Positions 1,121 through 59,527 of a stretch of 64,000 nt of DNA are shown one piece after another. The DNA comes from Cladochytrium replicatum (lineage: Eukaryota > Chytridiomycota > Chytridiomycetes > Cladochytriales > Cladochytriaceae). The position numbers were made by a program, and so were the translations under genes. The notes under the pieces were generated by a model that did not search any database, was not told where the DNA came from, and saw only the letters and a program-made list of their open reading frames with translations. The stretch is taken from the NCBI GenBank assembly GCA_025526935.1, contig JAHLKD010000001.1:372001-436000 (forward strand), read 5' to 3'. How positions within the stretch are numbered: position 1 is the stretch's first letter; every line of letters starts with the position of its first letter.

Positions 1121-4100
1121 ATGCCGGTTGCTGACCCGACTGACGTAGGCCAAAAGCCGGACGAGCAGCCCTTGAACAATAATGGGTTCGTACCCTTTGC
1201 CACTACCGCCGTTGAAACCAGCGGACTTGCCACTTCTTCAGAAGATGAATACTCTGGCGTGGAAGTTGTTTCGAATGTGGTCGAAAAGCCCTTCTTTGCA
1301 AGATTTGTTGACCAGCTGTTCGTGATGTTGAGCAGAAACACCACGTTGCAGGTGCGAAACGTTGTCATGGTTTGTTAATAATACAATTAACAGGTTGCTT
1401 TCAGATCCGGTATTATAGGTCCACTATTTTGCAAGCAGTCTTGGCTCCTTTGTTCTTTATGCTCCTTCTCTATGTGCTACAGCTTGGCGGATATTCAAAC
1501 CAACGCAGGAGCAATCCCTACCCTCCCACCGGCGACCTTGGGTTTCTTCAAAATTGTCAGGTGTGATAACAATGGCAGCGGTCTTATCACCTCTTTCTTA
1601 CGTCTGGGGTTGGAAGGGCCGAAGTCCTGGTGACCCATGCATTAATCTCATGTTCACTCCCAACGTTGAGCCGTACACGACTTTCGTTAAATCCATGATC
1701 GAGCTTAACAAGGAACGCTCTAAAAACACTAACAGCACTAATTGGTTGATCGAAGATCCTCTATCCGATACCAATTTCTTGCCGTCTAGGGCGCTCGGTG
1801 CTGTTCCTGTTCCTTCTGCTGACTTCATATACGATTATACACTAAAACACCGCAATGTGACGAAGTGGGGTATCGTGTTCAACAAAACTGAGACTCCTGC
1901 CTCAGCTCCCGGTGGTGCCAGTACCAATTTCCAATACCAAGTTTGGTTCAACGGAAGTCAGAGCGGCAATGGAACGGATTACTTCGGTCGTCAGGCCCTT
2001 ACACTCGTTACGCTCTTGGACTCTGCAATCAGTACGAATATATTTCTTATTCGGTTTATTTTTTGACTTTTTTCTCCAAGTTTCGTACACAAATGATCCT
2101 TCGGGGACAAAGTACGTGCGCGTGAACCCGAGGATGCAGGATTGGCCGCGCCTTCCGCCTGACCAGATTGCTGACACCGTTGTCCAAAACCTTGGGACTG
2201 TTTTCTTCTTCTGCGCAACCATGGTCATTTTCATCAACGTCGTCAACCAGATCGTCAATGAGAAGGAGCTGAAATTGCGAGCGGGGATGGAAATGATGGG
2301 TCTGATTGTGAGCACTTCTGCTGCAAAGTAATGTTCTGCCTTTGAGCTAAATTTTGATTTCAGCCCTCCGCCTACTGGATCTCCCACTTTTTGAGCAACA
2401 GCGTGATCATTTTCGTCTCGTCACTTATCAGCTGCCTCCTTGGTCTTGCCTTCCAGTTCAGCGTGTTCAAGCAGAGCAGCTTCGCAGTTCCCTTCATTAC
2501 ATTCTTCCTTTTCGGTGAAGCAATGGTCATGTTTGCGTTCTTCATCACGACCCTGGTTCGCTCTGCTCGTGTTGGTGTGCTGATCAGTATCTTCCTGTTC
2601 ATTATCGGGCTCGTTTTTGAGGGCTTTGTTTTCTCAAACACACAATTTGCGTACATCTGGTGGGATTCCGGGACTGACCGCGCCGGATGGCTTTGTAAGT
2701 GCATTCGTCTGCGTTGCCATCCATTGGGTTTCTTAGAGCTTTCGGTCTGACAGGTTTCATGTTCTTCCCACCATTCAACTTCGGCAAAATGTTCACGGAT
2801 CTAAATGTTCTGGTATGGTTGTTAAGCGGCACAGTACCCGCAAATCTCACATTCATCGTGCCAGACAACGGGAAAACTCGACCAGTTGACTTCCACTTAC
2901 ATCGCTGGAGCAGGATTTCCATGGTCCGCCCTGTACGACCCAGTCCCCGACTCCCAGCTCCCCGTGTACGGTTCCGGCAACCCTCCGGATGTACCCCCGC
3001 CCATTCAATCGTGGTACTTTTTGATCATGAACTGCGCGTTCTTTGGAATCCTAACCTGGTACTTGGACGCTGTCGTCCCAACCGAGTACGGGTCAGTCTA
3101 CCCACCCTGGTTCTTCCTAACTCCCAATTACTGGGGCCTTTCGCGTCGCCGTACAGGCGCCAAGGATGGAGAGGCAGAGTGGCTCGAGGAGATCCTTGCC
3201 GAGAAGGTTAAGTCTTTCACTGGAGATGATGAGGAGGAAGAGGATGATGTGGCTCATGAACGCAAGCGCGCTCTCGATCCAAACTACGTTCCAGCAGTGA
3301 AGATTGTGAACTTGCGTAAAGCTTATGGTAGTGGGAATAAGAGCAAGATTGCTCTAAGGAGCTTGGCGCTGACTTTCCACGAAGGCAAATGGTGAGAACC
3401 GACTATTGTGCTTACATGAAAAATTCTGATCACGTTACAGTCTCGCTGTTGTGGGACAGAACGGTGCTGGTAAAACCAGCGCAATCAACATCCTTTGCGG
3501 TCTTACCCCTGCGACTGGAGGCGATGCGCTAATGTACGGCCTCAGTGTCAAACACGACATGTCTCGCATCCGCAAGTTGATGGGTGTTTGCCCGCAGCAC
3601 GATATTCTCTTTGACGATCTTACCGCTCGTGAACATATTACCCTCTATGCCCGATTGAAGGGCGTCCCCATCGAGCAGCTCCCTGCTCTGATCGAAGCGC
3701 GTCTCAAAGCAGTCCGACTCTGGAAAGTCGCCGACCAGCGCGCTGGTGCCTTCTCAGGCGGGATGAAGCGCCGACTCAGCATGGTTATCTCCACTATCGG
3801 TGACCCAAAAGTGATCTTCATGGACGAGCCTACGACAGGCATGGACCCCGTCAACCGTCGCAAAGTCTGGCAGTTCATCGAAAAGTTCAAAGCCAACCGT
3901 GTAATTGTGCTCACGACCCACGCGATGGAGGAAGCCGAGGTGCTCGGTGACCAGATTGCGATCATGGCCGCCGGTCGTATGCGCGCAATCGGAAACCCCA
4001 TTGCTCTGAAGAGCAAGTACGGGGCTGGGTACCGTATGTCGTTGCTGACGGATCCGGCGAGGTTGGAGGAGGCGAAAACTGCAGTGGCGACCGTCGCACC

Positions 4101-7100
4101 AGAAGCGGAGCTGGAAGACGATGCTGCAGGCGCCTTGATCTATAGGCTTCCTCCGGACGCTGCGGAGACCGGTGTGGTGCCGAGGTTTATCAAATGGTTG
4201 GACAGCACGGAGGGCAGCTCGGTGATCAAGAGCTGGGGTATTAGTCAGACGAGCCTCGAAGAGGTGTTCTTGAGGTTGCTGAGAGACGGTGGGTTGGACG
4301 TTTTCAAAAAGGTGCGTGAGCAACAGCTGAAGAATGCGAATGCGGATGCCGCATCTACGCAAGTTTCCGTCCCCATCCCGCCTGAAGGTGTGTTAGCGCA
4401 GTTTCGCGCGTTATGTTATTCTCATCATTCGTCGTAGCGTCTATTCCTGCTCAAAGGAAGAGTTACCAGCTACGCGCTCTTGCTCGAAAGACTTTGGCAT
4501 ACCAATCTCGACAGTGGTTCACGAACATCTGCTGCATTACGTAGGTTGAACTGTCACTTTCTGATTAATTACTCACAGCTTGAATGTTAGTTTGTGTCCG
4601 CTTGTTATGGTGGTTATCGCTTCACTGCTGGGTATCGTTGTTCGTCAACTCATTGCAAACCAGCTGACTATTGAAGGTAATCTTCTACTTGGAACATTCA
4701 TTTTTTTACGACATCTTCTGAACTATCTATGACCATAGAGTACTTATACTGCTCTAGTTTGGATGCAATGGATCCCGCCACTAACTGGCCTTACACCAAC
4801 ATTTTAAACACAACTGTGAAGGGCTTGCTCCCAGTCACAGACCGCAGCAGCATCCCTGATGCCCAGACCGACACCGTCCGCCACCTCAACGTCGGCCCAC
4901 CGCCGTCTGCGGGAACATTTTCGACCGCCAATTACCCTTGTGTCCGTTGGTTCGGAACTAACCAGTACCCATACTCAAGCCTGTACGAACGCGACCCTGG
5001 TCGTTTCCAAGGAGGATATGAGAATCTTGACAGTACGTACACGGCACAACCAAAAGGTGGCTGGCTCGGTGTGCTCGCGCTCGCCCGACTTCAGACTGTT
5101 CTTAACCAGCTCCAAACTCGCCCGAACTTTATCTACACTTACAACACAACCAATGGGGTCGGCCCAGAGATGCTTGGTGTGCGAGAACGGACGGACCCAA
5201 TTGACTTGCTCTCGAACCCACGAGCGCTCTTAACAGCTGTCAGGGGTACCCCTGCCCATCCCACCTACAAGAGCGTAAACGGGAGCACTTCGGTGTTTGA
5301 TACAATTGAGGGACGATTGTATGTTGGATTCGAGAAGAACTCTAGTGTACCGGGCGGGTACTCAGTTGGTCTACAACCTGTGCCGTGGTTCACAAAGATA
5401 GGGGACGATAATGCCGCGATTGCTGCCCTTGGTGAGTTCCAAGATTTATCAGGTATTTTGATCTTAACCACCTTCTAATTTAGATGACAATATTGGATCG
5501 ACGATCAAAGCTACAATTGCAAAGTTGTCGACCCTGAACAAAACCGTCCTCACCGCCCCTTCTGACCAAGTCACTACTGAGGACTTCGTGCAGTTCTACG
5601 CTGATGTGGGGAAAGTGGTCAACGATGTTCCATACGGTGGTGTGCACTTTGATGTGCTCGATTTCGTGAACGGCGTATTCAACTACACTATGGTGATTGG
5701 ATCAGACGGCCGACTAGAACGAGCTGCCACATTTGCACCTGCAGGTCTTCGCCAGGTTATTCTTCAGAGCCAGCTTTCAAACGCAATCTGTTAGGGTTCC
5801 AGAAAACCGTTCTCTTATTCCGCTTGCTTATTCGTTCAATTTTTAGTACGGAAGATGAACTCCACCTTCTATGGTAGCTCCTCTATCACTCAAGGATTCC
5901 GCTCCATGCCCGAATTCCGCTCAACAGCGATCAGCCTTCCTATTGGATCCTTGGTTGGTCGCTTCCTCTTCCCCTTCGGTGTCTCGTTCTTGCTACCCAT
6001 TTTCGTCATCACCCTGGTGAAGGAGAAGGAAGATCGAATCCTCGTCATGATGCAGATGAACGGATTGAAGTCCATCACGTACTACCTCACCCACTACGCG
6101 CACTTCTACACCCTCCACGTGCTCTCATCGATCGTGTTTTTGCTCACCGGTCTCGCAATGCAGATGGAGATGTTCACCCGCACGGACTGGCTTGTGTTCT
6201 TGGTCATCTTCTTCTTGTGGGGACACGCACAGATCGCGATTGCGTTCTTCTTCAGCGCGCTGTTTTCGCGTTCTAGGGTTGCTTTGGTGACGACTTTCTT
6301 GATTGTGCTGTGCTCTGTCGTGGTTTATCTGGCCAGTGACTTCTTGTTCACTGACCGAGCGAACCCCGCGTTCTTCATCTGGCCACCATTCGCATTCTAC
6401 CGTAGGGTTTGTTCTCAGATTCGTTAGACAATCAAGCTAACTCTTCGCTCTTTTTTCAGGTATCCTCGGTGTGATCAATACTGCATCATACACCTCCAAC
6501 TCGCTCGCCTTTAACATCCGCACTATGTGGAACCCCTTCACCTCCGAGATCCCCTCCGCTATCATTGTCATGTTCATCATGACCATCGTCCTCCTCCTTC
6601 TTGCGGGCTACCTCGAGTCCGTCCTGCCCTCAGAGTACGGTGTGCCGAAGCCCTGGCACTGGCCCGTGTCTTATCCGTTCCTGGCGTTGACTGGCAAGGG
6701 CCGCGACGGGACGCCGAAGAAAAAGAAGGGAGCCGAGGTATCGAACATGTCTGGATTGATTTTGCCGCCGAACCCTGAGGAACTTGAGCTCGAAGACGAA
6801 GATGTGAAGCTAGAGCGTGCACGCGTCCTTGCGGATGAGTATGACAAAGCGTCGCCTGTTGTGATGAAGGGGATGAGGAAGGAGTATTCTGGAAAGGGAA
6901 CGAAGAAGTTGGCTGTGAAGGATGTGACGTTTGCGGTTGAGGATGGAATCGTGTTCGGTCTGCTTGGGGTGAGTTATACTGGGGTAGTTTGGTATTGACT
7001 GTCGCTAAATGTCCTTTTTCTCTTCTACGATTGTCCTCTATTCGCTTCAATAAGCCGGTACGTATCTAGATGTAATTCGGGGTACTGCTCTGTATGCTCA

Positions 7101-8082
7101 CAATTTTTTGTCTATTCCCAGAACGGAGCGGGTAAAACCACCCTTATATCGATTCTCACTGGTCTATACAACGCTACAGCTGGTCAAGCCCGCCTTGCAA
7201 GCTACGACATTGTGACAGAGCGCGCGCAAGTGTGGAACAGTATTGGTGTCTGCCCTCAGCACGACATTCTGTGGGACGATCTCACCGTCGAGGAGCACCT
7301 TCTCTTCTATGCCCGCCTTAAGGGTATCCCGAAGGACCAGGAGCGTGAGGCGGTGCAACACTCCATGGAGACTGTGTCTTTGGAAACCTTTGCACGCCGT
7401 CTTAGCCGGGGCTTGTCCGGAGGTGAGAAGCGACGTTTGTCTATTGCCATTGGTCTTGTTGGCAGCCCGAAAGTCGTCTTCCTTGATGGTATGGTGATAA
7501 ACAAATGATTTCAATATGTGGTGCTAATTCACGTCGTTTGCTACAGAGCCGACTACAGGTTTGGACCCTGAGGTTCGCCGACTTATATGGAACATTATAA
7601 ACGATGCAAAGAAGGGTAAGACTGTCATTTTGACGACTCACAGCATGGAGGAAGCAGAAGGTGAGCTTAATGCATCATTACTGTCCATGTTTATTCTCAC
7701 AAACAATTATTCAGTTTGCTGCCAGCGTATTGGTATCATGGCTAAGGGTATCCTGCGTTGCCACGGTCCCCAACTCCGCCTCAAGCAAGTGTACGGTTCC
7801 GGATTCAAGCTCTTCTTCTCGGCCAAACCATCTGACCTTCGACGCGCTGCGGCGTTTGTCGAGTCTGCGCTTCCTCAGGGATGGAAGAAGGTGGATTCCT
7901 TTGCAACGCTCGCTTCGTACGAGTTTGTTCCTGATCCACCAGGGATCATTGCGTCGCTGTTTGAGACAATTGAGGCTGGAAAGCGGGAACATGGTGTAGA
8001 GGACTGGGGCTTGTCACAGACTTCATTGGAGGATGTTTTCTTGAAGATTTGTGGAGAGGCGGAGATTGAGGCATCTTTGTGA
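1121..8082 (+). CDS. ABCA-type full-length ABC transporter
   Basis: Predicted 2001-residue ABC transporter of the A subfamily, expected to move lipids across a membrane. Exons: 1121-1369, 1405-1560, 1617-2031, 2081-2307, 2364-2694, 2754-2812, 2865-3391, 3441-4389, 4461-4540, 4579-4676, 4739-5431, 5484-5789, 5847-6401, 6460-6968, 7055-7057, 7122-7488, 7547-7660, 7715-8082. The order is membrane domain, ATPase, membrane domain, ATPase. The first ATPase has Walker A GQNGAGKT (660-667), signature FSGGMKRR and Walker B FMDEPTTGMDP. The second has GPNGAGKT (1718-1725), signature LSGGEKRR and Walker B FLDEPTTGLDP. Large loops follow the first membrane helix of each half, as in ABCA proteins. The family motif NEKELKLRAGMEMMGL is present. 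The proline of the second Walker A needs a 3-base exon at 7055-7057. The start at 1121 is chosen by context (AAAATAATG); an in-frame earlier start is possible. Confidence 0.9.
7055..7057 (+). other. Predicted 3-base microexon (one proline codon)
   Basis: CCG lies between an acceptor (CAATAAG) and a strong donor (GTACGTAT). Splicing it in gives GLLG-P-NGAGKT, the canonical second Walker A of the ABCA protein. Skipping it gives GLLG-NGAGKT, which breaks the GxxGxGKT spacing. The flanking introns become 86 and 64 bases, like others in the gene, instead of one of 153. Confidence 0.65.
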
Positions 8083-8556
8083 GGTGGGTAATTATTGGCG
8101 ATTTCATATGACATCACACAAGTTAGATTTTGTCTCATTGAGCGGAAATTGCTTTGTCTCGACAAGTAGTTGGAAATCGTAATAAGATATTGTTTTGGAG
8201 CAGTACAAAGAGGAAGTCTAGCCAGTAATCATTCAGATTGCAATGCGCTCTGGCTTGCAATGATTTTGAATTTTCATCCTCGGATGCAAACCAAAATTTC
8301 ATCGTTTCGATTTATGATTCACGGTGAGGCACATCCGGAACGCTGGCAGCCAATGGGGAGTCTCTGGGGGCAGTCACGTGACCAACCAAACCGCGTCCGG
8401 GTTTCGCAGCGTGTAGCGTAAATCGCGCACCTGTCTGTGCACAGCCATTAGTTCTTTTTGGCGTGTCAAGTTCGGCCTGTTCTGCTTCTATTTGAACAAC
8501 TCGCTCCCTCAACTGATTGAACTTCATTCAAATTTGGCTTCCGTAGTTGTGCCCCG
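8083..8556. other. Intergenic spacer
   Basis: No gene is seen. It must carry the 3' end of the ABCA gene and the promoter of the iron-uptake gene. A CACGTG hexamer occurs at about 8375. Confidence 0.5.
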
Positions 8557-11264
8557 ATGCCAAACTTGTTCAACGTTGGCGCGCTCTTCGTGCTGCTCAG
8601 AGAATTCCTCGAGGCGTCCATCGTCATCGGCGTGCTATTCAACTTCCTCAACAAAACAATCAAAAATGACCCAATCGCTCTGAAACGTGCGAAACGATGG
8701 GTCTGGTACGGCGCGATTCTTGGGCTCGTCATATCTCTGATCATCGGAGTCATTTTCACTGTCGTGTACTACGTCCTCAGACAGAATGTTTTCGAGTCGG
8801 TTGAGCCGCTGTGGGAAGGTTGCTTCCAGCTTATTGCCGCGTTCTTGCTCACATGTAAGTCTCAGTGTGCGGTATGAAGACGAGATCAGCTTTTGGTTGT
8901 CTGGTTTCACATTCGTGGGAAAATCCTGTTCATCCCGCTTCCTTTCAGGGATGGCATTTGCCATGCTAAACGCGGACAGCATGTACGACAAATGGGAACG
9001 CAAACTCCAGACCATGCAAACTGTTAACGGGGAAGCACCTAAAGCCGCAAGTCCGATGTCGCTCTTGATTCTTTCCTTCACCGTGATCGTTCGGGAAGGA
9101 GTCGAGTCCATCATTTTCTTGACTGGTGTTGGACAAGGAGAACCTGAGAGCCTCATTATCCCTGGCGCTATTGGTGCAGTCATTGGTATTGCCATTGGAT
9201 ACGCCATCACTTCCCGAATCGGCCGTTTCAAGATGCACAAGTTCTTCGTCATCTCCTCGATTATCCTGTTTGTCATCGCCGCGGGACTCGCATCCAACAC
9301 CGCTCACGAGTTCGAGGAGTATGGCTACCTTCGTGCGGCAGAATGGCGTGCTAACTATTTGAATGAGACCTTGCCCAAAATCATTACACCACCAGACTTC
9401 GTTAACTACGTTCCCACGACCAAGTCGATCAAGTTCACGGCTGGCCTGGCGTCAAAGAAGACTGGGCCATTCTCAATCCATGCTCGCTCTTTCGACGACT
9501 CTGCGCTCCATAAACCTATTCGCCGTTCAGATAGTGGCCTCGCTCGTCGTCAGTCTGGCACCGCTGCGAACGTGACGTACCCCACATTCACGAACTCACC
9601 TCCGTTGCGTCAAACGATCGCCGAATCAGCTTGCCCATCGATCAACGGGACGAGACGCGCTTCTTGCACTGTTCGAACCTACTTTGTTGCTGCTGAGGAG
9701 GAAGCGTGGGATTATGCCCCATCCGGATACAACCACTTCAACGGCGTTCCATTTGTGCGTGACCCCGAGGGTGCTGGTGTTTTCACTCTGCACGCCGAGA
9801 ACCGAATCGGATCGGTTTACTACAAGACTATGTTCTATGAGTATGAAGATGCCACTTTCACAAACCGTAAGGCCAAACCTTCCTGGTTAGGCGGTATTGG
9901 GCCGATCTTGAGGGCTGAAGTCGGTGATGTTATCAAGGTTTGTTTCATTAGTTTCCAATTCTTGGATGCTAGATTGCTAACTCATTTGTTAATCTTCAGA
10001 TCGTTTTCAAGAACAACGGAACTCTTCCCTACTCCATGCATCCTCACGGCGTTTTCTACAATGTCAGCTCCGAAGGTGCAACCACCCAATGGAACCAGGA
10101 AGGAACGGTGGTCGCTCCCGGCACTACCTACAACTACACATGGTCCATCCCCGAGCGTGCCGGTCCCGGCCCTGCAGACTCATCATCCATCCTCTGGGCG
10201 TACCACTCGCACAACATGGAGGTTCAGGATGTGTACTCTGGTCTCGTTGGGCCTCTCCTGGTGTACAAGACCGGCACTCTCAACCCGACCACCGACCTCC
10301 CCAACGACGTCGACAAAGAATACGTCCTGATGTTCACCGTTATGGACGAGAACACCTCGCACTTTATCGGCACCAACATTGGGCTGCAGATGCCAAGGTA
10401 CTTCAACCGCGACACGCAGCTTCCGCTCGAAACAGCGTTCAACGACGAGTTCAAAGAGTCAAACTTGATGCACTCTGTCAACTTCCGCATGTATAATAAC
10501 TTGGACGGATTGTTTGTGAGCGTCGGTGACAAGGTCCGATGGCATGTGTTCGCGATGGGAACTGAGGTTGATTTGCACACCGTACACTGGCACGGCAACA
10601 CGCTGCTTCACCAAGGATCGAGGGTAGATGCCATTGAGCTGCTTCCAGCTTCGTTCAAGACCCTGGACATGACCGTCGACGACGCCGGAACGTGGCTGAT
10701 CCGTAAGTCACTGATATTTACCACTCAGAAATGTCAACTTACTAAACTATTTTTGTACATTCAGACTGCCATGTTGCGGACCACATCACCGCCGGTATGG
10801 TCACTTCCTTCGAAGCATTCCCTCGCACCTCCAACTCCCCCATTGTCGTCAACAACTTCACAACCTTCCTCGCAGACCGCGAGAAAGTCACTGAGTCCCC
10901 CGAATCCACACCAATTCTCTGGAACACTGAGGACTGCTGTTCCGAAGAGTCCAACGCCTTCTTCAGCATCCTCAACTCGCTCATCGGTTACCGCGCCAAA
11001 GCCACCGTTGCAACCGTCGTAACCTACATCCTTTACTGGATTATCATCATCTGCGTGTGGTGGCTCTTCGTAAGGAAGCAGAGGGTGGGCAGAGGCAATG
11101 AGAAGAAAACCAGCGAGGAGGGTGATGAGAACTCTGGACGGGAGGATGGTGCGCTCTTGGTGGACGAGGAGAAGGCAGAGACTGAGGGGGATGAGGTGAA
11201 GGTTGTCATTGAGGCCCAGAAGGAGGAGTCGAAGTCAACGTTGCTGGGGAGCGAGGATAAGTAG
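8557..11264 (+). CDS. FTR1 iron permease with inserted multicopper ferroxidase
   Basis: Predicted 829 residues; exons 8557-8854, 8949-9937, 10000-10702 and 10765-11264. Residues 1-225 are an FTR1-type permease with six helices and the two iron motifs REFLE (15-19, a variant of REGLE) and REGVE (148-152). After a linker, residues of about 310-680 form a two-cupredoxin multicopper oxidase of ceruloplasmin/hephaestin type. All four copper-ligand motifs are present: HPHG (443-446), HSH (498-500), HTVHWH (622-627) and HCHVADHITAGM (664-675). Residues 715-766 then return to FTR1: a CC-containing segment, the FNALFGW-like piece FSILNSLIG and a last helix with YILYW. The oxidase therefore sits inside the permease between helices 6 and 7, a loop known to face outside in yeast Ftr1. 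The acidic C-terminal tail is probably cytosolic. In yeast the two activities are separate proteins (Fet3 and Ftr1). Confidence 0.88.
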
Positions 11265-11763
11265 AGGCTGGATTCAATGTACGAAAGCAGATGGGGCCGG
11301 GATATCGGCTTATCTCTTTCGGATGCGCCAACTTTCCGGTGCATGTTTCAGTGTTCATAGTGTAGAGCCAATTCCTTTTTAGTTCGTTCTTTACTTGCGT
11401 CGGTTCACAAAAACACAAATCTAAAAAATGACAGTTCTTGGGGGGAGGTTTTCGTTCTAAGCTTATTTGCAAAGCAGTGCTTTGGGTAGATTAGCACCAT
11501 TTTTGTTAGTCCTTTTGTGTTGTTGTCATTCATTCATGGAAAGCCCAGAGCCAGAGTGTGCGTCCTCATTAGTTTAGAATTAGTTCCGAAGTCCTCATTT
11601 CGTTTGTTTTGCAGTGCAAATTGATAATACAACAGTCAGTGCGCTACTACCATACTCATCATGCGTGCTTCTAAGTTTCTTGTCTCCCACCACCAACGAT
11701 TTGCCCATCGCTCCATCAAAGCAACTATCTGACGTCTTTGTTAAGCTTGATCATTAACCGTCT
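11265..11763. other. Intergenic spacer
   Basis: No coding potential or repeat was recognised. It contains the 3' end of the iron-uptake gene. Confidence 0.4.
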
Positions 11764-13798
11764 TTGTCGTGTTTTGGTGCAACCAGGAGGCCACCAATCG
11801 ATCAATGCCCTCCGACCTCTATGGGTCAAGATCTATCGACAACCATTTTGCCCTCTCAAATCGTAGTTCCTGTCATTCCCGGAAAAACTTTTACTTCCTT
11901 TCCACAGTCCGTCTGGCCTACAGGGTGCATGTTAACGACATCCATGATGATCAAACCTCATCGGTTACGTTGACGCCTATGCTCCTCTCGATCTGGCTGA
12001 CATTCTCGTGATCGGATAGGGTTCGGAGTGGTACTACAAAGCGGGGCAGTCGGGGACACCAGAGGCCATGACAAACATTGCAATCATGTGCTTTACGAAG
12101 CTCCATCATCTGATGGGAGACCTGAGAGTTCCTGTTACGGTAACCCTCCTATTGACGCAGGAACGTTGAGGACTGCGGAGCAGAAAGACGTTTGGGACCA
12201 AGCCTGGTTGTATCTGGAACAAGCGGCGGAGAGGGACTGGATGTCACCGTTTCTTTTAAACAATATTCAGCTCTTGAAGTCTCAGGGCATCAAAGTTGCT
12301 CCGATCTTCCTGGACATGTGGAAGTACAGAATGGTGGAAGTGGAGGCAAGTCATCGAATCGAAATGCAGAGCTGAAGTTGAAGCTGCCCGACCGGATCCG
12401 ACTAGGGAACGCATTCAAAGTCATTTGCAGTAACTTTTCGAAGATACTGCAAAGTCAAATTGATGACTGGAAAGACGGTCACAAGGAAAAGTGTCAGCCT
12501 GCCAACACTGCCAACAAGAAGAAGTTCAATTCAATCCAACCCAGCAATGACAATGACATTGGAACTCTTAGTATAATGATTGGCGATATACAAGTGGCAA
12601 CAAACACCTTATGTTAGGGGTTAACATGAGTGCTTGGATCAAGATCTCTCGCGAGCGTCCGTCAAACTTCCTCAACTTCGCTCAACAAGGACGAATTGTT
12701 GAACGAAGCCGTGAGATTAATTACCAAAGGTCGATTCAAAAAAGCCGCAAACTGCGCTAACAAAGCTCTGGACATAATTGAGCTGGAGGTTTCGATCGCC
12801 AAAATGAAGCGTCAACACAGATGAAAGTATCAGGGCATGTTTCTCCGCCGCGTGACGTGCTACTTAGGCGAATGTTGAAAGGGATCGTCGAATGTCAAGG
12901 AAAAAGAAATTTGTCAATCTTTGCATGATTATGATTTCGCTCTCAAGGCCGGAGTTTCGAAAAAGAAGTGCTGGTACAATTTGAAGATGATTTCAGCGAA
13001 TTGGAAACAAAGTGCCGCGTCTTGCTGAAGAAGGAAATCAAAGAGGACAAGAAGAAACCGGAAATCGCTGACTTGAGGCTGATACAGTGCAACTCAGTGG
13101 CATGGGATGGAATGGAAGAAGATGACACCTGCCCTATTTGTCAGGTTGCATGGGTGAACTTTCAGACTCTTCGATCGCCGTTAGCCCATCATGTTCCCGT
13201 GGTGTCTGCGCGCCGTGTATCTCTCGTTACGGCGCTGAGCGCCAAAAGGAATTCGAAACGGACGTCCTACAGGGGTTCACAAACCCGTCTTCTGTTGTGT
13301 CGTTTGCAAAGATCGATTATCACAACAATCCGTTCCCAAACTCGACGAGCTCGTCATTCGGAACAATATGTTCTCTCGTGACTTGATATCAACTCTTCAC
13401 TTGAGCAACAAAACGAGACCGAAATTCTCAAACGATTTTGCTGTTGGAACACCACTTTGATTTTTTCAAAAAGTATAAGACGTATTATCCAACCTCGGAA
13501 TGGATCCAGTCGACCATAGAGTCCTCGACGACCATTCGGAAAAACAATCGACTACGTAAGAGCCAGATCTCCCGTTGTCGCACTAATCACCGAGATCAAA
13601 GAACTTGAGAACAAAGCCAGTCGATTGATTGACCCGGATGCCGAAGAGCTCTCAAAAACGAAGAACTGCGACTTGGATGGGATAGAAACGCCACTCGCGA
13701 TGTTTACGAGCGAACGAACACATCCTTCGAGAGCGATGATTTTCGACTTGTACGGTGGATCTTCACGGTATGCTATTTGGAGGACCAAAGGGCAGTGA
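11764..13798 (+). pseudogene. Decayed MYND/RING-finger-like gene
   Basis: Coding-like stretches in all three plus frames, separated by stops and shifts. About 12420-12520 encodes a MYND-finger tail (DDWKDGHKEKC) whose YC half lies in another frame. 12968-13140 runs as a charged helix up to CPIC. The RING-like continuation GVCAPC is one frame away, and CVVCKDRL and the tail to about 13450 are in a third. In the C-x-H part of the RING the histidine is replaced by arginine (CSRGVC). 13538-13798 is one more open stretch ending in TGA. The shifts are not flanked by convincing splice sites. A heavily spliced but live gene is less likely, given the loss of zinc ligands. Confidence 0.45.
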
Positions 13799-14420: not shown

Positions 14421-16253
14421 ATGGGAGGTGGAAAGCGCTCTTCAATACTGAACCGACCGTCAGCGAAGGGCAAAGATAAACTGGATGGGGCCAACCAGAT
14501 TATCAACCTTTCAGGTGACGATCTTTATCCAGCTGCACTTCGCCAGGGCACGGCTGTCAAACCTGGGAAGAGCGCAGAGCCATTCAAGCACAAAAAGCCG
14601 CACGTTGAAGAGCAGCCGTCCTTTTACATCCTCATAACGACAGTCCTCGCATATCAAATTATTTTCCTGTTCGGCCGAATCCGTGACTTCATTGCCGTTT
14701 GGTTCAAGAAGAACAAGTACATGAGATACCAGAATGTGAGTTGCAGGGGAATAAGACCGCATCGAGCTGAGCTGTGCGCGAAGTTTTACGAGGGCTATCG
14801 ATAACATGCTCTCCCATTTCGCAGGGTTATGCACCTCTTCTGAACTCTGGGTTTGATGCCTTTTACAAACGTCACATTTACAATAAAATCCGAGACTCCT
14901 TCAATCGCCCGACTACAGCTGCTCCCGGTCGCTTCGTCAAGGTTTATCAACGCGAGTCGTACGACGGATTCGATTCGTTTATCAAGACGGGCGAGATAAA
15001 GGAGTGTTTGAACCTTTCATCTTACAACTATTTGGGCTTTGTTCAGTCGGAGGGACCTTGCGCAGACGCAGTCGCGGTCGCCATCAACGAGTTTGGTGTT
15101 GGCGTCGGCTCGTCCCGAATGGATGCCGGAACTACGAATCAGTTGCTCGAAACAGAAGCCCTCGTCGCAAGATTTTTGGGACAAGAAAGCGCAATTTTGG
15201 TGTCGATGGGATTTGCAATGAACGCGACCTCCATCCCTGCACTTGTAGGAAAGGTACAGAGTCACATTTATCTATCGCCATAGCGATTCGGTCCTTAATT
15301 CTTGTGCTTCTTACTTCCAGGGGTGCTTGATTGTTAGTGATGAGCTGAACCATTCTTCAATCGTGCTCGGTTCTCGAATGTCGGGAGCCACCATCAAGGT
15401 CTTCAAGCACAACGATACGGCGGATCTAGAACGCGTTTTGCGTAAACAAATTGCTTACGGTCAACCTAGAAGCGGTCGCGCATGGAAGAAGGTTCTCGTC
15501 GTCTGTGAAGGTTTGTATTCTATGGAAGGAACCTACTGTCCCCTCCCCGGTATCCTCGAGCTGAAGAAGAAGTACAAGGTGCACGACTTTCTCTTTTCTG
15601 TAGTGCATATATTGACGAATGCTTTGCAGTTCTACTTATACATCGATGAGGCTCACTCCATGATGGCAATTGGCCCGAACGCAAAAGGTGTGTGCGATTA
15701 CTACGGAGTCGCCCATTCCAATGTCGACGTCCTCATGGGAACGTTTACGAAGTCGTTTGGCTCGGCGGGTGGATACATCGCGGGTCGCAAGGCAATTATC
15801 GATCATCTCCGAGTCACCAACCACTCAGCCATCTACGCAGAATCCCTCACCCCGGTTGGCTTGGGCCAGATCCAGGCATGTCTAAAGATTCTCATGGGCG
15901 AAGACGGAACGGACGAGGGAAGACGGCGTATCACTTCTCTCCGGCAAAACTCGCTGTACTTCTCCCGTGCACTCCGCAAGCTCGGATTCATTGTGTACGG
16001 AATGGAGGACAGCCCGGTCGTTCCCCTCATGTTGTACCATCCCACCAAGATGCCTGCGTTCTCGAGAGAAATGCTGGCGAGGAACATCGCCGTCGTGGTG
16101 GTTGGCGCACCTGCAACCCCAATCCTGAAATGCAGGGTGCGGTTTTGTATCAGCGCATCTCACACGCTGGAGGATCTGGAGAAGGCAGTGGAGGCGATCA
16201 ACGAGGTCGGGGATCGTTTGAACTTGAAGCACTCGCGAAAGATTCGGGATTAG
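14421..16253 (+). CDS. LCB2: Serine palmitoyltransferase subunit 2
   Basis: Predicted 541 residues; exons 14421-14735, 14825-15253, 15321-15578 and 15630-16253, all phase 0. The enzyme joins serine and palmitoyl-CoA, the first step of sphingolipid synthesis, at the ER membrane with an LCB1 partner (not in this window). Features: one N-terminal membrane helix (residues about 70-95), the SSYNYLGF motif, YIDEAHS (338-344) and the PLP-lysine motif GTFTKSFGSAGG with Lys375. The third intron (51 bases) is free of stops, so the frame also reads through it. Removing it restores the family spacing KYK-FYLYIDEAHS. A broken copy lies at 52383-54004 on the opposite strand. Confidence 0.93.
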
Positions 16254-42864: not shown

Positions 42865-45846
42865 TCAAAAAAGAATGAAAACACCTGCACGCTCCTTGTA
42901 CTCTGCAACAGTGTCAGCTGAATGTTCTTCCAGTTCGTCAGCAGGTTCCCAGGAGTCATCAGAGGGCGGATAGCCTAACCAACGCACACGAAACTGGAGT
43001 TTCCCGCGATGTTTCCGGTGAGCCACTATTCGTTCGACTTCATACCATTCACCATCTTCTTCGAGCTCCGGTTCTGGCCTATCTCGACCTTGCTGCCGGG
43101 GAGCAGGAGGTTCATGCTTCTTCAACATTGAAACATGAAACCAAGGATTGACACGAGAAAACTTTTTGGGAAGTGCAAGACGGTAGGTGTCATACTTGCC
43201 CACTTCCTCAACGACAAATGGACCAACCCAAGATTCCGATAGTTTCCGTTGATAGAACTTCATATGCTTGGTGGTGAGCATAACATCGTCTCCAACTTTG
43301 AATATTGGAATTGGCCTCTTAGTGTCCTGAGCTCTTTTATAATACTCCTGATATTCTGAATAAAGTGTAGTGCACTGGATTTGCAATTCCCTCAATCGAT
43401 CGACTAGTCTTTCTGCATCAGCTGACCGTAGGGCACGATGTTCTGACGAATCGATAAGGGCTCCTGGACCAGTGGGATTATATCCCAAATCCTGTTCAAA
43501 TCTGGTAACTCCCAAAGGTTCATTACTGGCTCGAACTTGTGAATTGATTGCGAACTCAACCATCGGAAGGTAACGCTCCCATGCTAACCCACAGTCATCC
43601 CCATCGTACACTGCATCAGCTAATTTGGATAGAACTGCAACTGCCAATTTCACTGTGCTCTCTGCATATGGATTAGCCTGTGGATGATGAGCTGTACTAG
43701 AATGCTGCTCAATTCCCAATCGCTTCAGGACTGTCTGCGTCATCCCACTAACAAAGGCAGATCCTCTATCTGATGTGAATCTCTCTGGTAAACCATGGAG
43801 TGGATAATATCTCTCGTATATCAAATTGCCAACTTCTTCGGATGTTGGGTTGATGTTACACTTGTAGAGATGACATCGTGAAGAGAAGCAGCAGACTACA
43901 ACAAGAATGCCAATCAATGGATGACAACCACAGAATGGACCTGCATTGTCTAAAGATGAATGAGCCCAACGACCAGTTATGGCTGCAATATTCCGGAGGA
44001 AAGTTGAATGAGGGGGTGCTCGGGCATGATCTTGACACACCTGGCAACCTTTGACCCATCTCCTGATCTTATGCAGCATCTTTGGAAACCAGAAGACTGT
44101 AGCTAATGCAGCAAACATTTTTTCAGCAGAAAAATGACCACCTCTTTCATGTCTATCCTGGAGGATAGTTGCTTCGGCAACCTCAGTTGGTACAAATACC
44201 TTCCAACCTCCAGCATTATGATACAGAATATTATCTATAAATTCCCAAGAGGTGGCAAAGACTCGCTCTTGCTCACTGCACTGCTTCAAATCTCCATTAT
44301 TTTTTTCTATAATTGCTAGATAACGCTGTGCTGGCTTTTCCAAATCCTGAACACGCTCACGCCTCCACTGTTCATCACGATCGTCCCACCAGCGTGACAC
44401 TGCAGAATTATCTTTGAACCGTAGCACCATAGCTTGAGCTTGCATTGGTTCTGTCCAAGCTTGACTAATTGCAACTTTTGTCACTGCTTTGAAAAACTTC
44501 CCTAACTCATTTGAGCTGGCATCATCAGCCTGGCCTGAAGAAGAAGTCCCAGCAAAAAGAGGTATGCTGTTTAGAGCATTCTGGTCTAACTTCTCTGATC
44601 GTTTGGTGAGAAGCCCAGTTTGTTGGAGTGCTGAAACAATTTCCAGTCCAATGTTTCCCTGTGGAGGGGAAGATTGGCCAACTGGAAAGCTCTGGAAAAC
44701 ATCCGCTGTAGGTCCATGATAATCACTAGTTCCAAGTGTTTTCACTGTTGGTACAGCTGCATCTTTCAAAACAAATTGGGCAGATGGTAAAACTGGGGAA
44801 GCTTGTTGTGATGCCGAGTCCTTTGGTCCAAGCTCTTGCATATCGGAGTGCTGATCGTCAGATGATGATGACACTGCAAGTAATGCTCGAATCTGATCAC
44901 GATCCCTCTTCAATCTGTCACATTCAGCAATTGATAAATCCAAAGCTTCACGCAATTTGTGGTTGGCCCTGCATTCTGCTCGCCACAGACCACAAAATCG
45001 ATCTGCCAACGTTGGAGGTCCATTTTCGTTTTGTGAAGAGACCTCGCTCCCACGCCCGCTCTGCTGCGCCATTTCGCCGTCGGGTATGTTGGCGCGATCC
45101 AAACGAGTGCGAAGACTGGCTCCGGCAGCCTTCACTGAGGCCAATTCCGCCTCTACCAGTTCGGCCTCGATGCGGAGTTGGCTGGCAAGCTCTTGGGACA
45201 CCTTCAACTGCTTCTCCAAGTCATCCAGAGCTGAAACTCGCTTTGCCTCCACCGATCGAGCCGTCTCTAGCTCCGCTGCAGCACTGGCTGCCTTGCGCCG
45301 TGCTTCCGCTGCATTCTCCTGTGCAACGCGAAGCTCTCGACAAGCACTAGCCAGTTCCTGCTGCAGGTCTGCCAAGTTTTGGCCAATTCCATCATGGTTC
45401 GATAAATCGGCATCCCAAAAATCGGTCTGGGTCTGGGAATCAGTCCAACGCTTCTCTCCATCGTCCTCGACATCAGGAACATCAATGGGATCAAGCTGAT
45501 CCGTCGCCAGAACCAAGTTATCCGCAAGCGCCGAGCACTGCATCACAAGTGCATCGTTCTCGATTTCAAGCTGCTCGAGCGATACGGCCGATTCAGCGCG
45601 TCCCTCTTCACGCGCACGGTTTAGCAATTCCACAAGTGCATTCGGGACAGCGATCTGGCCAGATCCAATACTGGCCAAAAATCCAGCAACGTCCTCCAAT
45701 GAATACATCAACAAAAACGCATTCCTCCACGCATTGCGAGGTTCCCCCAAGCGCTCCGCAAGATGCCGCAATCGTTCCCGAGGTTCCAAAGGCTGTCCAA
45801 CATGAGCCCTCGCCAAGCGATCCTGAACCCTCGAAGTTGTCGACAT
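42865..45846 (-). CDS. Gag-integrase-chromodomain fusion ORF, element 1
   Basis: 993 residues from the ATG at 45846 (MSTTSRVQDRLARAHVG). Residues 1-504 are gag-like, with a long coiled coil (about 155-270). At 44334/44335 the frame passes directly into the region before integrase (PAQRYLAII). Integrase has the zinc-binding H-x-H-like and CQVC part (GGHFSAEK...GCQVCQDH) and the D, D, E triad (SLDNAGPF, FTSDRGSAF, NPYAESTVKL). A C-terminal chromodomain follows (YEVERIVAHR, FRVRWLGYPPSDDSWEP). Protease, RT and RNase H are absent, so the element cannot copy itself alone. The frame is intact. An apparent 49-codon upstream extension lies in the leader. Confidence 0.85.
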   Translation of the reverse strand: MSTTSRVQDRLARAHVGQPLEPRERLRHLAERLGEPRNAWRNAFLLMYSLEDVAGFLASIGSGQIAVPNALVELLNRAREEGRAESAVSLEQLEIENDALVMQCSALADNLVLATDQLDPIDVPDVEDDGEKRWTDSQTQTDFWDADLSNHDGIGQNLADLQQELASACRELRVAQENAAEARRKAASAAAELETARSVEAKRVSALDDLEKQLKVSQELASQLRIEAELVEAELASVKAAGASLRTRLDRANIPDGEMAQQSGRGSEVSSQNENGPPTLADRFCGLWRAECRANHKLREALDLSIAECDRLKRDRDQIRALLAVSSSSDDQHSDMQELGPKDSASQQASPVLPSAQFVLKDAAVPTVKTLGTSDYHGPTADVFQSFPVGQSSPPQGNIGLEIVSALQQTGLLTKRSEKLDQNALNSIPLFAGTSSSGQADDASSNELGKFFKAVTKVAISQAWTEPMQAQAMVLRFKDNSAVSRWWDDRDEQWRRERVQDLEKPAQRYLAIIEKNNGDLKQCSEQERVFATSWEFIDNILYHNAGGWKVFVPTEVAEATILQDRHERGGHFSAEKMFAALATVFWFPKMLHKIRRWVKGCQVCQDHARAPPHSTFLRNIAAITGRWAHSSLDNAGPFCGCHPLIGILVVVCCFSSRCHLYKCNINPTSEEVGNLIYERYYPLHGLPERFTSDRGSAFVSGMTQTVLKRLGIEQHSSTAHHPQANPYAESTVKLAVAVLSKLADAVYDGDDCGLAWERYLPMVEFAINSQVRASNEPLGVTRFEQDLGYNPTGPGALIDSSEHRALRSADAERLVDRLRELQIQCTTLYSEYQEYYKRAQDTKRPIPIFKVGDDVMLTTKHMKFYQRKLSESWVGPFVVEEVGKYDTYRLALPKKFSRVNPWFHVSMLKKHEPPAPRQQGRDRPEPELEEDGEWYEVERIVAHRKHRGKLQFRVRWLGYPPSDDSWEPADELEEHSADTVAEYKERAGVFILF

Positions 45847-45994
45847 ATTGTGCTCAGAAAAATGCGTAAAATAATCGAAACTGATCGCCCGTAATTCTGA
45901 GTAATCAGGGAAGTGTTTGTGTAGCCGGTAATACGTTCCTGAGTGAACGCACAAAAAGGTCCAAAAATGGTGGGTCCCGGATGAAACCACCACC

Positions 45995-46464
45995 TGTTAA
46001 AAACCAAGGGCTTCTCCTGGCAGCGGTAGGGCGTGTTTAGCTGTACTTTAGCTAGCACAACAGCTCCAGGTTCCGTCTCTTGGCCCAGTTGAATATGGGG
46101 TAAATGATAAAGCAAATTCCCTTGTTGCACACAAGCACTCTGTGGCTAATACAAATCAAGGCTGGGATTGCTAACCAGGAAGACTGTGGTGTGTGAGTGT
46201 TTGGTTTGTTCCACTGTCTCCTTTATTTATACCTGTGGTGTGTGAGTGTTTGGTTTGTTCCACTGTCTCAAGGAACCAGCCACCCTCACACCGCAATAAA
46301 TATTCCCACACAGAAGAATATTCAACAATTACAATAAAGAAAATAAACAGCATGACTGCCCAAAACATAAATCGAGCAATAGCATAAAACCTTCTCAAGC
46401 CCAAGAGAAAAGCCTATTGCACAAAACAATGGGTAAGCCCTCCAAGGGTACACAGAATTTAACA
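45995..46464 (-). repeat. LTR, 5' copy of element 1
   Basis: 470 bases. It differs from the left LTR at two noticed sites: GGGGTAAATG instead of GGGGTGATG, and CAAAACAT instead of CAAAGCAT. The sequence on its inner side (minus strand GGTGGTGGTTTCATCC) is where a primer-binding site is expected. Confidence 0.9.
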
Positions 46465-55927: not shown

Positions 55928-58909
55928 TCAAAAAAGAATGAAAACACCTGCACGCTCCTTGTACTCTGCAACAGTGTCAGCTGAATGTTCTTCCAGTTCG
56001 TCAGCAGGTTCCCAGGAGTCATCAGAGGGCGGATAGCCTAACCAACGCACACGAAACTGGAGTTTCCCGCGATGTTTCCGGTGAGCCACTATTCGTTCGA
56101 CTTCATACCATTCACCATCTTCTTCGAGCTCCGGTTCTGGCCTATCTCGACCTTGCTGCCGGGGAGCAGGAGGTTCATGCTTCTTCAACATTGAAACATG
56201 AAACCAAGGATTGACACGAGAAAACTTTTTGGGAAGTGCAAGACGGTAGGTGTCATACTTGCCCACTTCCTCAACGACAAATGGACCAACCCAAGATTCC
56301 GATAGTTTCCGTTGATAGAACTTCATATGCTTGGTGGTGAGCATAACATCGTCTCCAACTTTGAATATTGGAATTGGCCTCTTAGTGTCCTGAGCTCTTT
56401 TATAATACTCCTGATATTCTGAATAAAGTGTAGTGCACTGGATTTGCAATTCCCTCAATCGATCGACTAGTCTTTCTGCATCAGCTGACCGTAGGGCACG
56501 ATGTTCTGACGAATCGATAAGGGCTCCTGGACCAGTGGGATTATATCCCAAATCCTGTTCAAATCTGGTAACTCCCAAAGGTTCATTACTGGCTCGAACT
56601 TGTGAATTGATTGCGAACTCAACCATCGGAAGGTAACGCTCCCATGCTAACCCACAGTCATCCCCATCGTACACTGCATCAGCTAATTTGGATAGAACTG
56701 CAACTGCCAATTTCACTGTGCTCTCTGCATATGGATTAGCCTGTGGATGATGAGCTGTACTAGAATGCTGCTCAATTCCCAATCGCTTCAGGACTGTCTG
56801 CGTCATCCCACTAACAAAGGCAGATCCTCTATCTGATGTGAATCTCTCTGGTAAACCATGGAGTGGATAATATCTCTCGTATATCAAATTGCCAACTTCT
56901 TCGGATGTTGGGTTGATGTTACACTTGTAGAGATGACATCGTGAAGAGAAGCAGCAGACTACAACAAGAATGCCAATCAATGGATGACAACCACAGAATG
57001 GACCTGCATTGTCTAAAGATGAATGAGCCCAACGACCAGTTATGGCTGCAATATTCCGGAGGAAAGTTGAATGAGGGGGTGCTCGGGCATGATCTTGACA
57101 CACCTGGCAACCTTTGACCCATCTCCTGATCTTATGCAGCATCTTTGGAAACCAGAAGACTGTAGCTAATGCAGCAAACATTTTTTCAGCAGAAAAATGA
57201 CCACCTCTTTCATGTCTATCCTGGAGGATAGTTGCTTCGGCAACCTCAGTTGGTACAAATACCTTCCAACCTCCAGCATTATGATACAGAATATTATCTA
57301 TAAATTCCCAAGAGGTGGCAAAGACTCGCTCTTGCTCACTGCACTGCTTCAAATCTCCATTATTTTTTTCTATAATTGCTAGATAACGCTGTGCTGGCTT
57401 TTCCAAATCCTGAACACGCTCACGCCTCCACTGTTCATCACGATCGTCCCACCAGCGTGACACTGCAGAATTATCTTTGAACCGTAGCACCATAGCTTGA
57501 GCTTGCATTGGTTCTGTCCAAGCTTGACTAATTGCAACTTTTGTCACTGCTTTGAAAAACTTCCCTAACTCATTTGAGCTGGCATCATCAGCCTGGCCTG
57601 AAGAAGAAGTCCCAGCAAAAAGAGGTATGCTGTTTAGAGCATTCTGGTCTAACTTCTCTGATCGTTTGGTGAGAAGCCCAGTTTGTTGGAGTGCTGAAAC
57701 AATTTCCAGTCCAATGTTTCCCTGTGGAGGGGAAGATTGGCCAACTGGAAAGCTCTGGAAAACATCCGCTGTAGGTCCATGATAATCACTAGTTCCAAGT
57801 GTTTTCACTGTTGGTACAGCTGCATCTTTCAAAACAAATTGGGCAGATGGTAAAACTGGGGAAGCTTGTTGTGATGCCGAGTCCTTTGGTCCAAGCTCTT
57901 GCATATCGGAGTGCTGATCGTCAGATGATGATGACACTGCAAGTAATGCTCGAATCTGATCACGATCCCTCTTCAATCTGTCACATTCAGCAATTGATAA
58001 ATCCAAAGCTTCACGCAATTTGTGGTTGGCCCTGCATTCTGCTCGCCACAGACCACAAAATCGATCTGCCAACGTTGGAGGTCCATTTTCGTTTTGTGAA
58101 GAGACCTCGCTCCCACGCCCGCTCTGCTGCGCCATTTCGCCGTCGGGTATGTTGGCGCGATCCAAACGAGTGCGAAGACTGGCTCCGGCAGCCTTCACTG
58201 AGGCCAATTCCGCCTCTACCAGTTCGGCCTCGATGCGGAGTTGGCTGGCAAGCTCTTGGGACACCTTCAACTGCTTCTCCAAGTCATCCAGAGCTGAAAC
58301 TCGCTTTGCCTCCACCGATCGAGCCGTCTCTAGCTCCGCTGCAGCACTGGCTGCCTTGCGCCGTGCTTCCGCTGCATTCTCCTGTGCAACGCGAAGCTCT
58401 CGACAAGCACTAGCCAGTTCCTGCTGCAGGTCTGCCAAGTTTTGGCCAATTCCATCATGGTTCGATAAATCGGCATCCCAAAAATCGGTCTGGGTCTGGG
58501 AATCAGTCCAACGCTTCTCTCCATCGTCCTCGACATCAGGAACATCAATGGGATCAAGCTGATCCGTCGCCAGAACCAAGTTATCCGCAAGCGCCGAGCA
58601 CTGCATCACAAGTGCATCGTTCTCGATTTCAAGCTGCTCGAGCGATACGGCCGATTCAGCGCGTCCCTCTTCACGCGCACGGTTTAGCAATTCCACAAGT
58701 GCATTCGGGACAGCGATCTGGCCAGATCCAATACTGGCCAAAAATCCAGCAACGTCCTCCAATGAATACATCAACAAAAACGCATTCCTCCACGCATTGC
58801 GAGGTTCCCCCAAGCGCTCCGCAAGATGCCGCAATCGTTCCCGAGGTTCCAAAGGCTGTCCAACATGAGCCCTCGCCAAGCGATCCTGAACCCTCGAAGT
58901 TGTCGACAT
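55928..58909 (-). CDS. Gag-integrase-chromodomain fusion ORF, element 2
   Basis: 993 residues, same as the element 1 protein from the MSTTSRV start onward as far as I can see. Gag part to residue 504, then integrase with intact HH-CC finger and D-D-E triad, and the C-terminal chromodomain. An uninterrupted frame in two separate insertions suggests recent mobility of this deleted form with enzymes supplied by a complete relative. Confidence 0.85.
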   Translation of the reverse strand: MSTTSRVQDRLARAHVGQPLEPRERLRHLAERLGEPRNAWRNAFLLMYSLEDVAGFLASIGSGQIAVPNALVELLNRAREEGRAESAVSLEQLEIENDALVMQCSALADNLVLATDQLDPIDVPDVEDDGEKRWTDSQTQTDFWDADLSNHDGIGQNLADLQQELASACRELRVAQENAAEARRKAASAAAELETARSVEAKRVSALDDLEKQLKVSQELASQLRIEAELVEAELASVKAAGASLRTRLDRANIPDGEMAQQSGRGSEVSSQNENGPPTLADRFCGLWRAECRANHKLREALDLSIAECDRLKRDRDQIRALLAVSSSSDDQHSDMQELGPKDSASQQASPVLPSAQFVLKDAAVPTVKTLGTSDYHGPTADVFQSFPVGQSSPPQGNIGLEIVSALQQTGLLTKRSEKLDQNALNSIPLFAGTSSSGQADDASSNELGKFFKAVTKVAISQAWTEPMQAQAMVLRFKDNSAVSRWWDDRDEQWRRERVQDLEKPAQRYLAIIEKNNGDLKQCSEQERVFATSWEFIDNILYHNAGGWKVFVPTEVAEATILQDRHERGGHFSAEKMFAALATVFWFPKMLHKIRRWVKGCQVCQDHARAPPHSTFLRNIAAITGRWAHSSLDNAGPFCGCHPLIGILVVVCCFSSRCHLYKCNINPTSEEVGNLIYERYYPLHGLPERFTSDRGSAFVSGMTQTVLKRLGIEQHSSTAHHPQANPYAESTVKLAVAVLSKLADAVYDGDDCGLAWERYLPMVEFAINSQVRASNEPLGVTRFEQDLGYNPTGPGALIDSSEHRALRSADAERLVDRLRELQIQCTTLYSEYQEYYKRAQDTKRPIPIFKVGDDVMLTTKHMKFYQRKLSESWVGPFVVEEVGKYDTYRLALPKKFSRVNPWFHVSMLKKHEPPAPRQQGRDRPEPELEEDGEWYEVERIVAHRKHRGKLQFRVRWLGYPPSDDSWEPADELEEHSADTVAEYKERAGVFILF

Positions 58910-59057
58910 ATTGTGCTCAGAAAAATGCGTAAAATAATCGAAACTGATCGCCCGTAATTCTGAGTAATCAGGGAAGTGTTTGTGTAGCCGGTAATACGTT
59001 CCTGAGTAAACGCACAAAAAGGTCCAAAAATGGTGGGTCCTGGATGAAACCACCACC

Positions 59058-59527
59058 TGTTAAAAACCAAGGGCTTCTCCTGGCAGCGGTAGGGCGTGTT
59101 TAGCTGTACTTTAGCTAGCACAACAGCTCCAGGTTCCGTCTCTTGGCCCAGTTGAATATGGGGTAAATGATAAAGCAAATTCCCTTGTTGCACACAAGCA
59201 CTCTGTGGCTAATACAAATCAAGGCTGGGATTGCTAACCAGGAAGACTGTGGTGTGTGAGTGTTTGGTTTGTTCCACTGTCTCCTTTATTTATACCTGTG
59301 GTGTGTGAGTGTTTGGTTTGTTCCACTGTCTCAAGGAACCAGCCACCCTCACACCGCAATAAATATTCCCACACAGAAGAATATTCAACAATTACAATAA
59401 AGAAAATAAACAGCATGACTGCCCAAAGCATAAATCGAGCAATAGCATAAAACCTTCTCAAGCCCAAGAGAAAAGCCTATTGCACAAAACAATGGGTAAG
59501 CCCTCCAAGGGTACACAGAATTTAACA
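59058..59527 (-). repeat. LTR, 5' copy of element 2
   Basis: 470 bases, followed on its right by the second copy of the target duplication GTGCA. Confidence 0.9.

Follow-up and report, generated by a model that had tools for sequence, protein, structure and literature searches.

In this study, we confirm from the DNA sequence that a predicted gene of the fungus Cladochytrium replicatum encodes an FTR1 iron permease with a multicopper oxidase nested in its outer loop 6. The gene lies in a 64,000-nucleotide stretch of contig JAHLKD010000001.1 (positions 372,001 to 436,000 of the forward strand), the whole of which is referred to here as the window. The inserted oxidase corresponds to a single un-triplicated ceruloplasmin unit, a point that goes beyond the initial annotation of this DNA. 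The product is probably a single-chain high-affinity iron importer in which a two-domain, ceruloplasmin-type ferroxidase occupies the place of outer loop 6, with active sites shared between the chains of a homotrimer. How Fe3+ passes from ferroxidase to permease without being released is a standing question for Fet3-Ftr1. With both partners fixed in one chain at the hand-off loop, the geometry of this step becomes testable on one purified molecule. In addition, a one-repeat ceruloplasmin relative that holds all ligands together in a flagellate fungus bears on the origins of the six-domain proteins, namely ceruloplasmin, hephaestin and clotting factors V and VIII.

Gene model and nesting of the oxidase in FTR1

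The spliced open reading frame (8557-11264, plus strand) contains three introns and gives an uninterrupted product of 829 amino acids, with the stop at 11264 (Table 1). Splice sites are predicted, set by eye and by reading frame. Exon 2 spans FTR1, the linker and the beginning of cupredoxin 1, and exon 4 spans copper motif 4, the CC segment and helix 7; since both joints between FTR1 and oxidase lie within single exons, neither hinges on the choice of splice sites. Positions 8001-12000 contain no N, and third-position GC is 0.57-0.75 across the four parts. The motifs start at residues 15 (REFLE), 148 (REGVE), 443 (HPHG), 498 (HSH) and 622 (HTVHWHG), followed in the C-terminal half by 664 (HCHVADH), 721 (CC), 730 (FSILNSLIG) and 751 (YILYW). 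An FTR1 start, a full two-cupredoxin oxidase and an FTR1 C-terminal end had been read as one gene, and the open 829-residue frame, in which all motifs were located, bears this out.

Table 1. Features of the permease-oxidase gene. Positions are nucleotides of the window; ligands are given as residues of the predicted protein.
Feature	Position or residues	Strand	Content or basis
Exon 1	8557..8854	+	Met, FTR1 helices 1-2, start of helix 3; REFLE 8599-8613
Exon 2	8949..9937	+	FTR1 from the remainder of helix 3 through helix 6, REGVE 9092-9106, linker, beginning of cupredoxin 1; joint 1
Exon 3	10000..10702	+	HPHG 10039-10050, HSH 10204-10212, iron-site E582-H587 10456-10473, E618 and HTVHWHG 10564-10596
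Exon 4	10765..11264	+	Copper motif 4 HCHVADHITAGM (final exon 3 base included), CC 10935-10940, helix 7 11016-11072, cytoplasmic tail, stop; joint 2
Introns	8855-8948, 9938-9999, 10703-10764	+	94, 62 and 62 nt; each GT...AG, none a multiple of 3
Linker, helix 6 to oxidase (aa 227-340)	9329..9670	+	114 aa
Two-cupredoxin oxidase, ceruloplasmin-type (aa 341-690)	9671..10844	+	Broken by introns 9938-9999 and 10703-10764
Trinuclear ligands, domain 1 in ceruloplasmin	H443, H445, H498, H500		Alignment
Trinuclear ligands, domain 6 in ceruloplasmin	H625, H627, H664, H666		Alignment
Type-1 copper ligands	H622, C665, H670, M675		Alignment
Iron-site residues	E582, H587, D669, E618		Counterparts of E935, H940, D1025 and E272/E971 of ceruloplasmin

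Pfam FTR1 matched residues 7-225 with 142.6 bits (cut-off 25.3; E 2.1e-41), and elsewhere in the protein Cu-oxidase_3 (416-519) and Cu-oxidase_2 (593-680) were found. Hydropathy predicts seven helices (10-28, 52-70, 88-106, 138-156, 168-186, 198-216 and 748-766). Counts of Lys and Arg in the loops, read by the positive-inside rule, predict an outside N-terminus and, as in FTR1 permeases, an inside tail, and place the loop of 531 residues between helices 6 and 7 (217-747) outside; eight of the nine N-glycosylation sequons fall within this loop. The RExxE pair (helices 1 and 4) and the Glu of helix 3 (E87, yeast E89) are all present. No DxxE was found in outer loop 6 near helix 6 or 7, where the closest acidic sets are EFEE (residue 220) and ESPE (residue 707). 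A review calls the loop-6 DxxE residues conserved across the FTR1 family (PMC11817551). Since the FTR1 sequence signature is present despite the missing DxxE, the permease part is filed as a diverged FTR1.

The nesting was examined against yeast Ftr1. Residues 1-226 align to yeast residues 1-239, with 86 identities in 223 aligned residues, and residues 720-772 align to yeast 267-319, with 15 identities in 53, so that residues 227-719, 493 amino acids including the oxidase, stand where yeast has only the 27 residues 240-266 with DASE. The yeast residues R16/E17/E20, E89 and R157/E158/E161 correspond in the alignment to R15/E16/E19, E87 and R148/E149/E152. The C-terminal alignment scored 92, which was reached by none of 2000 shuffles (best 56) that preserved the layout of loop, helix and tail. 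Thus, hydropathy and the yeast alignments together uphold the proposed insertion between helices 6 and 7 against an end-to-end fusion. The letters used for yeast Ftr1, which we take to be correct, match the published positions at E89, DASE 246-249, N254 and RRGH 317-320. These positions are printed in PMC11817551, where loop 6 with DASE is also reported to be required for Ftr1 to interact with Fet3, and where its DxxE motif is described as a possible binding site for Fe3+ along the pathway. The role in iron hand-off that had been ascribed to this outside loop is thus in line with the literature (PMC11817551), and the insert even replaces the yeast DASE 246-249 stretch.

An extension of the Pfam match was also tried as a test of the C-terminal permease part. 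With the insert removed, Pfam FTR1 gave 153 bits and reached near the model end (N-terminal part alone, 143.7). Among the tail controls, one of five shuffled tails was extended likewise and gave 151 bits, which was not the case for the remaining four shuffles (143.6-147 bits) or for three tails from an ABC transporter frame (136.3-142.3 bits). As one shuffle nearly equalled the real tail, this test was dropped and the comparison with yeast Ftr1 is relied on instead.

A single ceruloplasmin-type unit and its relatives

The oxidase part matched the whole ceruloplasmin chains of the PDB with E values of 2.9e-207 for rat and about 1e-202 for human, and residues 341-690 scored 217-252 bits against each single repeat of both proteins. 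The best 60 of 166 PDB matches were ceruloplasmin, coagulation factors V/VIII with a snake-venom relative, and then two-domain laccases and copper oxidases; bacterial two-domain laccases matched at 1e-14 to 4e-12. As ceruloplasmin heads these matches and Fet3 is absent among the best 60 of 166, the oxidase is indeed closer to ceruloplasmin than to Fet3, as had been suggested. When all were aligned jointly, the unit was 36.1, 39.8 and 43.1% identical to human repeats 1, 2 and 3, and the human repeats were 40.2-43.9% identical among themselves; local alignments gave 36.5, 41.7 and 46.2% for the unit.

All 16 copper and iron ligand positions of human ceruloplasmin are occupied in the single fungal unit; of these positions, human repeat 1 has lost six, repeat 2 eight and repeat 3 two. 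The copper ligand numbering of human ceruloplasmin is the one we take to be correct. The human ligand letters were checked at published numbers, with iron sites according to PMC11817551. Sequence relation and the full set of T1, T2 and T3 ligands place the unit with ceruloplasmin-type oxidases, as one repeat (residues 341-690) and not as the six-domain, three-repeat layout of ceruloplasmin and hephaestin. Its two domains are of ceruloplasmin type, in place of the three domains of Fet3-type oxidases, and a pair of cupredoxins of which the second carries the type-1 copper corresponds to the layout of type-B two-domain oxidases. The residues of the ceruloplasmin-type iron site (Table 1) mark it as a putative ferroxidase.

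Relatives were sought in prokaryotes with one genome per species (84,980 species), using two short patterns together with an alignment of three rows, in which the fungal unit stood beside repeats 1 and 3 of human ceruloplasmin. The scan gave 54 loci, 51 of them full-length two-domain units; the partial loci L059, L061 and L062 were dropped before residue counts and trees. The full-length relatives (L009-L058 and L060) are 42.5-55.8% identical to the fungal unit (median 49.7) and come from Chloroflexota, Actinomycetota, Nitrosomonas and other Pseudomonadota, Myxococcota, Methylomirabilota, a cyanobacterium and others, and among archaea from Nitrososphaerota and Methanoperedens. The 16 ligand positions are conserved in all 51, apart from a single exception at the H980 position and a single one at the H1020 position, and conservation at E582 and E618 is partly selected rather than independent, as the scan patterns include both Glu residues. 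These stand-alone two-domain oxidases are the closest relatives found. They form a prokaryotic family of ceruloplasmin-like oxidases with a complete ferroxidase-type iron site, which the scan found often in Nitrosomonas, Arthrobacter and Cryobacterium. Counted from stop to stop, two of them (L029 and L035) have about 200 additional N-terminal residues that include several hydrophobic stretches, and these proteins may therefore be membrane-bound.

FTR1 was present in 13 of the 26 prokaryote genomes with a relative that were covered (26 of the 54 loci). None of 17 prokaryotic FTR1 loci (2.2-3.9 kb each) contained the oxidase, and none of the 863 open frames of at least 150 residues in the 54 oxidase loci was an FTR1. 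A scan of viral contigs gave 29 pattern stretches with no relative among them. On plasmids, the oxidase unit found 74 records, one with at least 80% coverage (Methylocystis heyeri, 43.7%), and the permease part found two weak records. No NCBIfam model scored above its cut-off for the fungal oxidase unit.

In a tree of 55 rows, the three human repeats cluster apart from the fungal unit (support 99/91), and in 34 of those rows the same split has a support of 92 (SH-aLRT alone). Long branches meet in the tree, and with 34 rows a branch of support 80 also sets the fungal unit together with all three repeats apart from the remaining rows. A tree constrained to group the unit with repeat 3 alone was not rejected (AU 0.52) and scored slightly better. 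Three origins of the unit are not told apart by the tree: a relic that predates the triplication, a gene transferred from prokaryotes, and a cut-down ceruloplasmin. A cut-down animal-type ceruloplasmin seems the less likely origin, because no single human repeat retains all ligands; however, repeat 3 lacks only two of them and its joint branch with the fungal unit is not rejected.

Proposed working and alternatives

In ceruloplasmin, the trinuclear site sits where domains 1 and 6, which belong to different repeats, come together (PMC3600357), and the iron sites each borrow one Glu, E272 or E971, from another repeat (PMC11817551). Type-B two-domain oxidases form homotrimers in which two protomers contribute residues to the trinuclear site between them and the type-1 sites are turned toward a central tunnel (PMC13151041). 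By homology, one chain with a single unit would not suffice for a trinuclear copper site of the usual geometry. Since a second chain would be required for the copper cluster as well as for the iron site, and since the trinuclear site lies between units in both ceruloplasmin and type-B oxidases, we infer that the functional unit is a homotrimer with three permeases under a single oxidase ring. In such a trimer, Fe2+ released by ferric reductases would bind E582, H587 and D669 together with E618 from the neighbouring chain. The electron would go to the type-1 copper (H622, C665, H670, M675) and then to the trinuclear cluster, to which one chain would contribute H625, H627, H664 and H666 and the next chain H443, H445, H498 and H500, and where O2 would be turned into water. 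Fe3+ would then directly enter the REFLE/REGVE helices of the attached permease, expressed in the same chain. If the trimer reading is true, a trimeric FTR1 is predicted.

The iron sites of ceruloplasmin lie on the side away from its base. In the fungal protein they perhaps face away from the membrane, which would weaken the case for a direct hand-off by the shortest path. It is tempting to speculate further that a membrane homotrimer has ferroxidase sites only between chains and passes iron to the permease beneath, and that its oxidase is a living form of the unit from before the triplication; taken as a whole, this is plausible and falls somewhat short of probable.

Several other readings have to be weighed. 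Three RR dipeptides (residues 291, 299 and 335) lie in the outside linker, and a precursor cut at one of them by a Kex2-like protease would give a six-helix permease and an oxidase anchored by helix 7, resembling Fet3, which is an oxidase with one C-terminal helix. However, the three dibasic sites do not exceed what chance would give in the linker (expectation 1.2, p about 0.10) and helix 7 would part from its permease, so that such processing seems unlikely. The nested protein could also be a monomer whose two cupredoxins form the trinuclear site internally in an altered arrangement, and the 114-residue linker that precedes the oxidase would not hold it tightly to the membrane part. Against this, the joint between the cupredoxins aligns without a large insert to the ceruloplasmin repeats, whose trinuclear site lies between repeats, and the published type-B two-domain oxidases are trimers (PMC13151041); we consider a monomer quite unlikely.

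Potentially, the oxidase acts in vivo on copper or another substrate while the permease works alone, like RiFTR1 of Rhizophagus irregularis, which functions in yeast without a ferroxidase (PMC11836134). This is very doubtful, as all four ceruloplasmin iron-site residues (E582, H587, E618, D669) are kept and the insert occupies the iron-acceptor loop. With a single assembly and a predicted splice model, separate permease and oxidase genes might have been read as one, but both joints fall in single exons of one open frame with no N and comparable third-position GC, and the last permease helix lies in frame downstream of the oxidase. Because a join error would have to land in frame twice, an artefact of assembly or gene model is highly improbable.

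The putative single-chain importer shares traits with several known systems. With yeast Fet3p-Ftr1p it shares an FTR1 with two RExxE motifs, seven helices and an inside C-terminus, and a ferroxidase coupled at outer loop 6. The yeast system consists of two genes and chains, and its oxidase, Fet3, is of the three-domain laccase type and has a helix of its own, whereas the Cladochytrium protein is one chain with a ceruloplasmin-type oxidase in the DASE position. Ceruloplasmin and hephaestin have the same copper motifs and iron-site residues, but their ligands are spread over three repeats of six domains in all and in vertebrates they are coupled to ferroportin, an efflux permease; in the fungal protein, a single repeat holds every ligand and is attached to an importer. 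The 51 prokaryotic oxidases have the same two-domain unit with C-terminal type-1 copper and the same ligands, but are stand-alone, with no FTR1 in the fetched stretches. In Lichtheimia corymbifera, three of four FTR1 genes adjoin an oxidase gene, a likewise genetic coupling of permease and oxidase, although as neighbouring genes for separate chains (PMC4133162). FOYG_17127 of Fusarium oxysporum is a secreted one-third ceruloplasmin, modelled as a trimer, and thus another fungal, single two-domain ceruloplasmin-like unit (PMC6994591). It differs in that it has no attached permease and that its listed trinuclear residues include D185 and Q352, which are His in the Cladochytrium protein (PMC6994591). 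Since FOYG_17127 is already published, the single unit is of a known kind, while its placement inside a permease was not found described: among the matches listed in open-access PubMed Central (titles, abstract starts and term counts), none reported a permease and oxidase in a single chain. A database entry with the order FTR1-oxidase-FTR1 may exist elsewhere.

Host genome and neighbouring features

In the 50.5-Mb assembly (198 contigs), the only FTR1 matches were two exons of the permease-oxidase gene. The initial annotation had proposed a check for the loss of separate FET3 and FTR1 genes, and no second FTR1 was detected. Another copper oxidase, on contig C95, is a three-domain protein with an N-terminal hydrophobic stretch and no helix past copper motif 4, whose best PDB matches are a laccase and then Fet3, and which could be a second ferroxidase; beyond it, further searches of the own genome found no more copper oxidases. 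Family searches were run exon by exon and those for copper oxidases failed to list the nested oxidase itself. As such searches can miss intron-split genes, the count of other copper oxidases is at least one.

Fungal chitin synthase gave 22 exon matches and the flagellar gene RIB43A one, which fits the earlier placement of the DNA in a flagellate fungus. The NAD-binding domain of ferric reductases and NADPH oxidases gave 15 exon matches, six of them strong, and Nramp matches were found at three places in the assembly. Genes of the ferric reductase type are clustered, with three strong matches on contig C116 and two on C19.

Other open frames of the window were characterised by reading their translations. 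Directly upstream of the permease-oxidase gene lie open frames of an ABCA-looking ABC transporter (3430-8082, plus strand), and downstream an open frame (15249-16253, plus strand) resembles a PLP-dependent serine palmitoyltransferase/oxoamine synthase subunit. On the minus strand, two open frames of 1043 codons (42865-45996 and 55928-59059) are 99.94% identical over 3132 nt. Judged by their translation, they resemble a retroelement of the Ty3/gypsy type that carries an integrase and a chromodomain, and the pair, about 13 kb apart, appears to represent a very recent copy.
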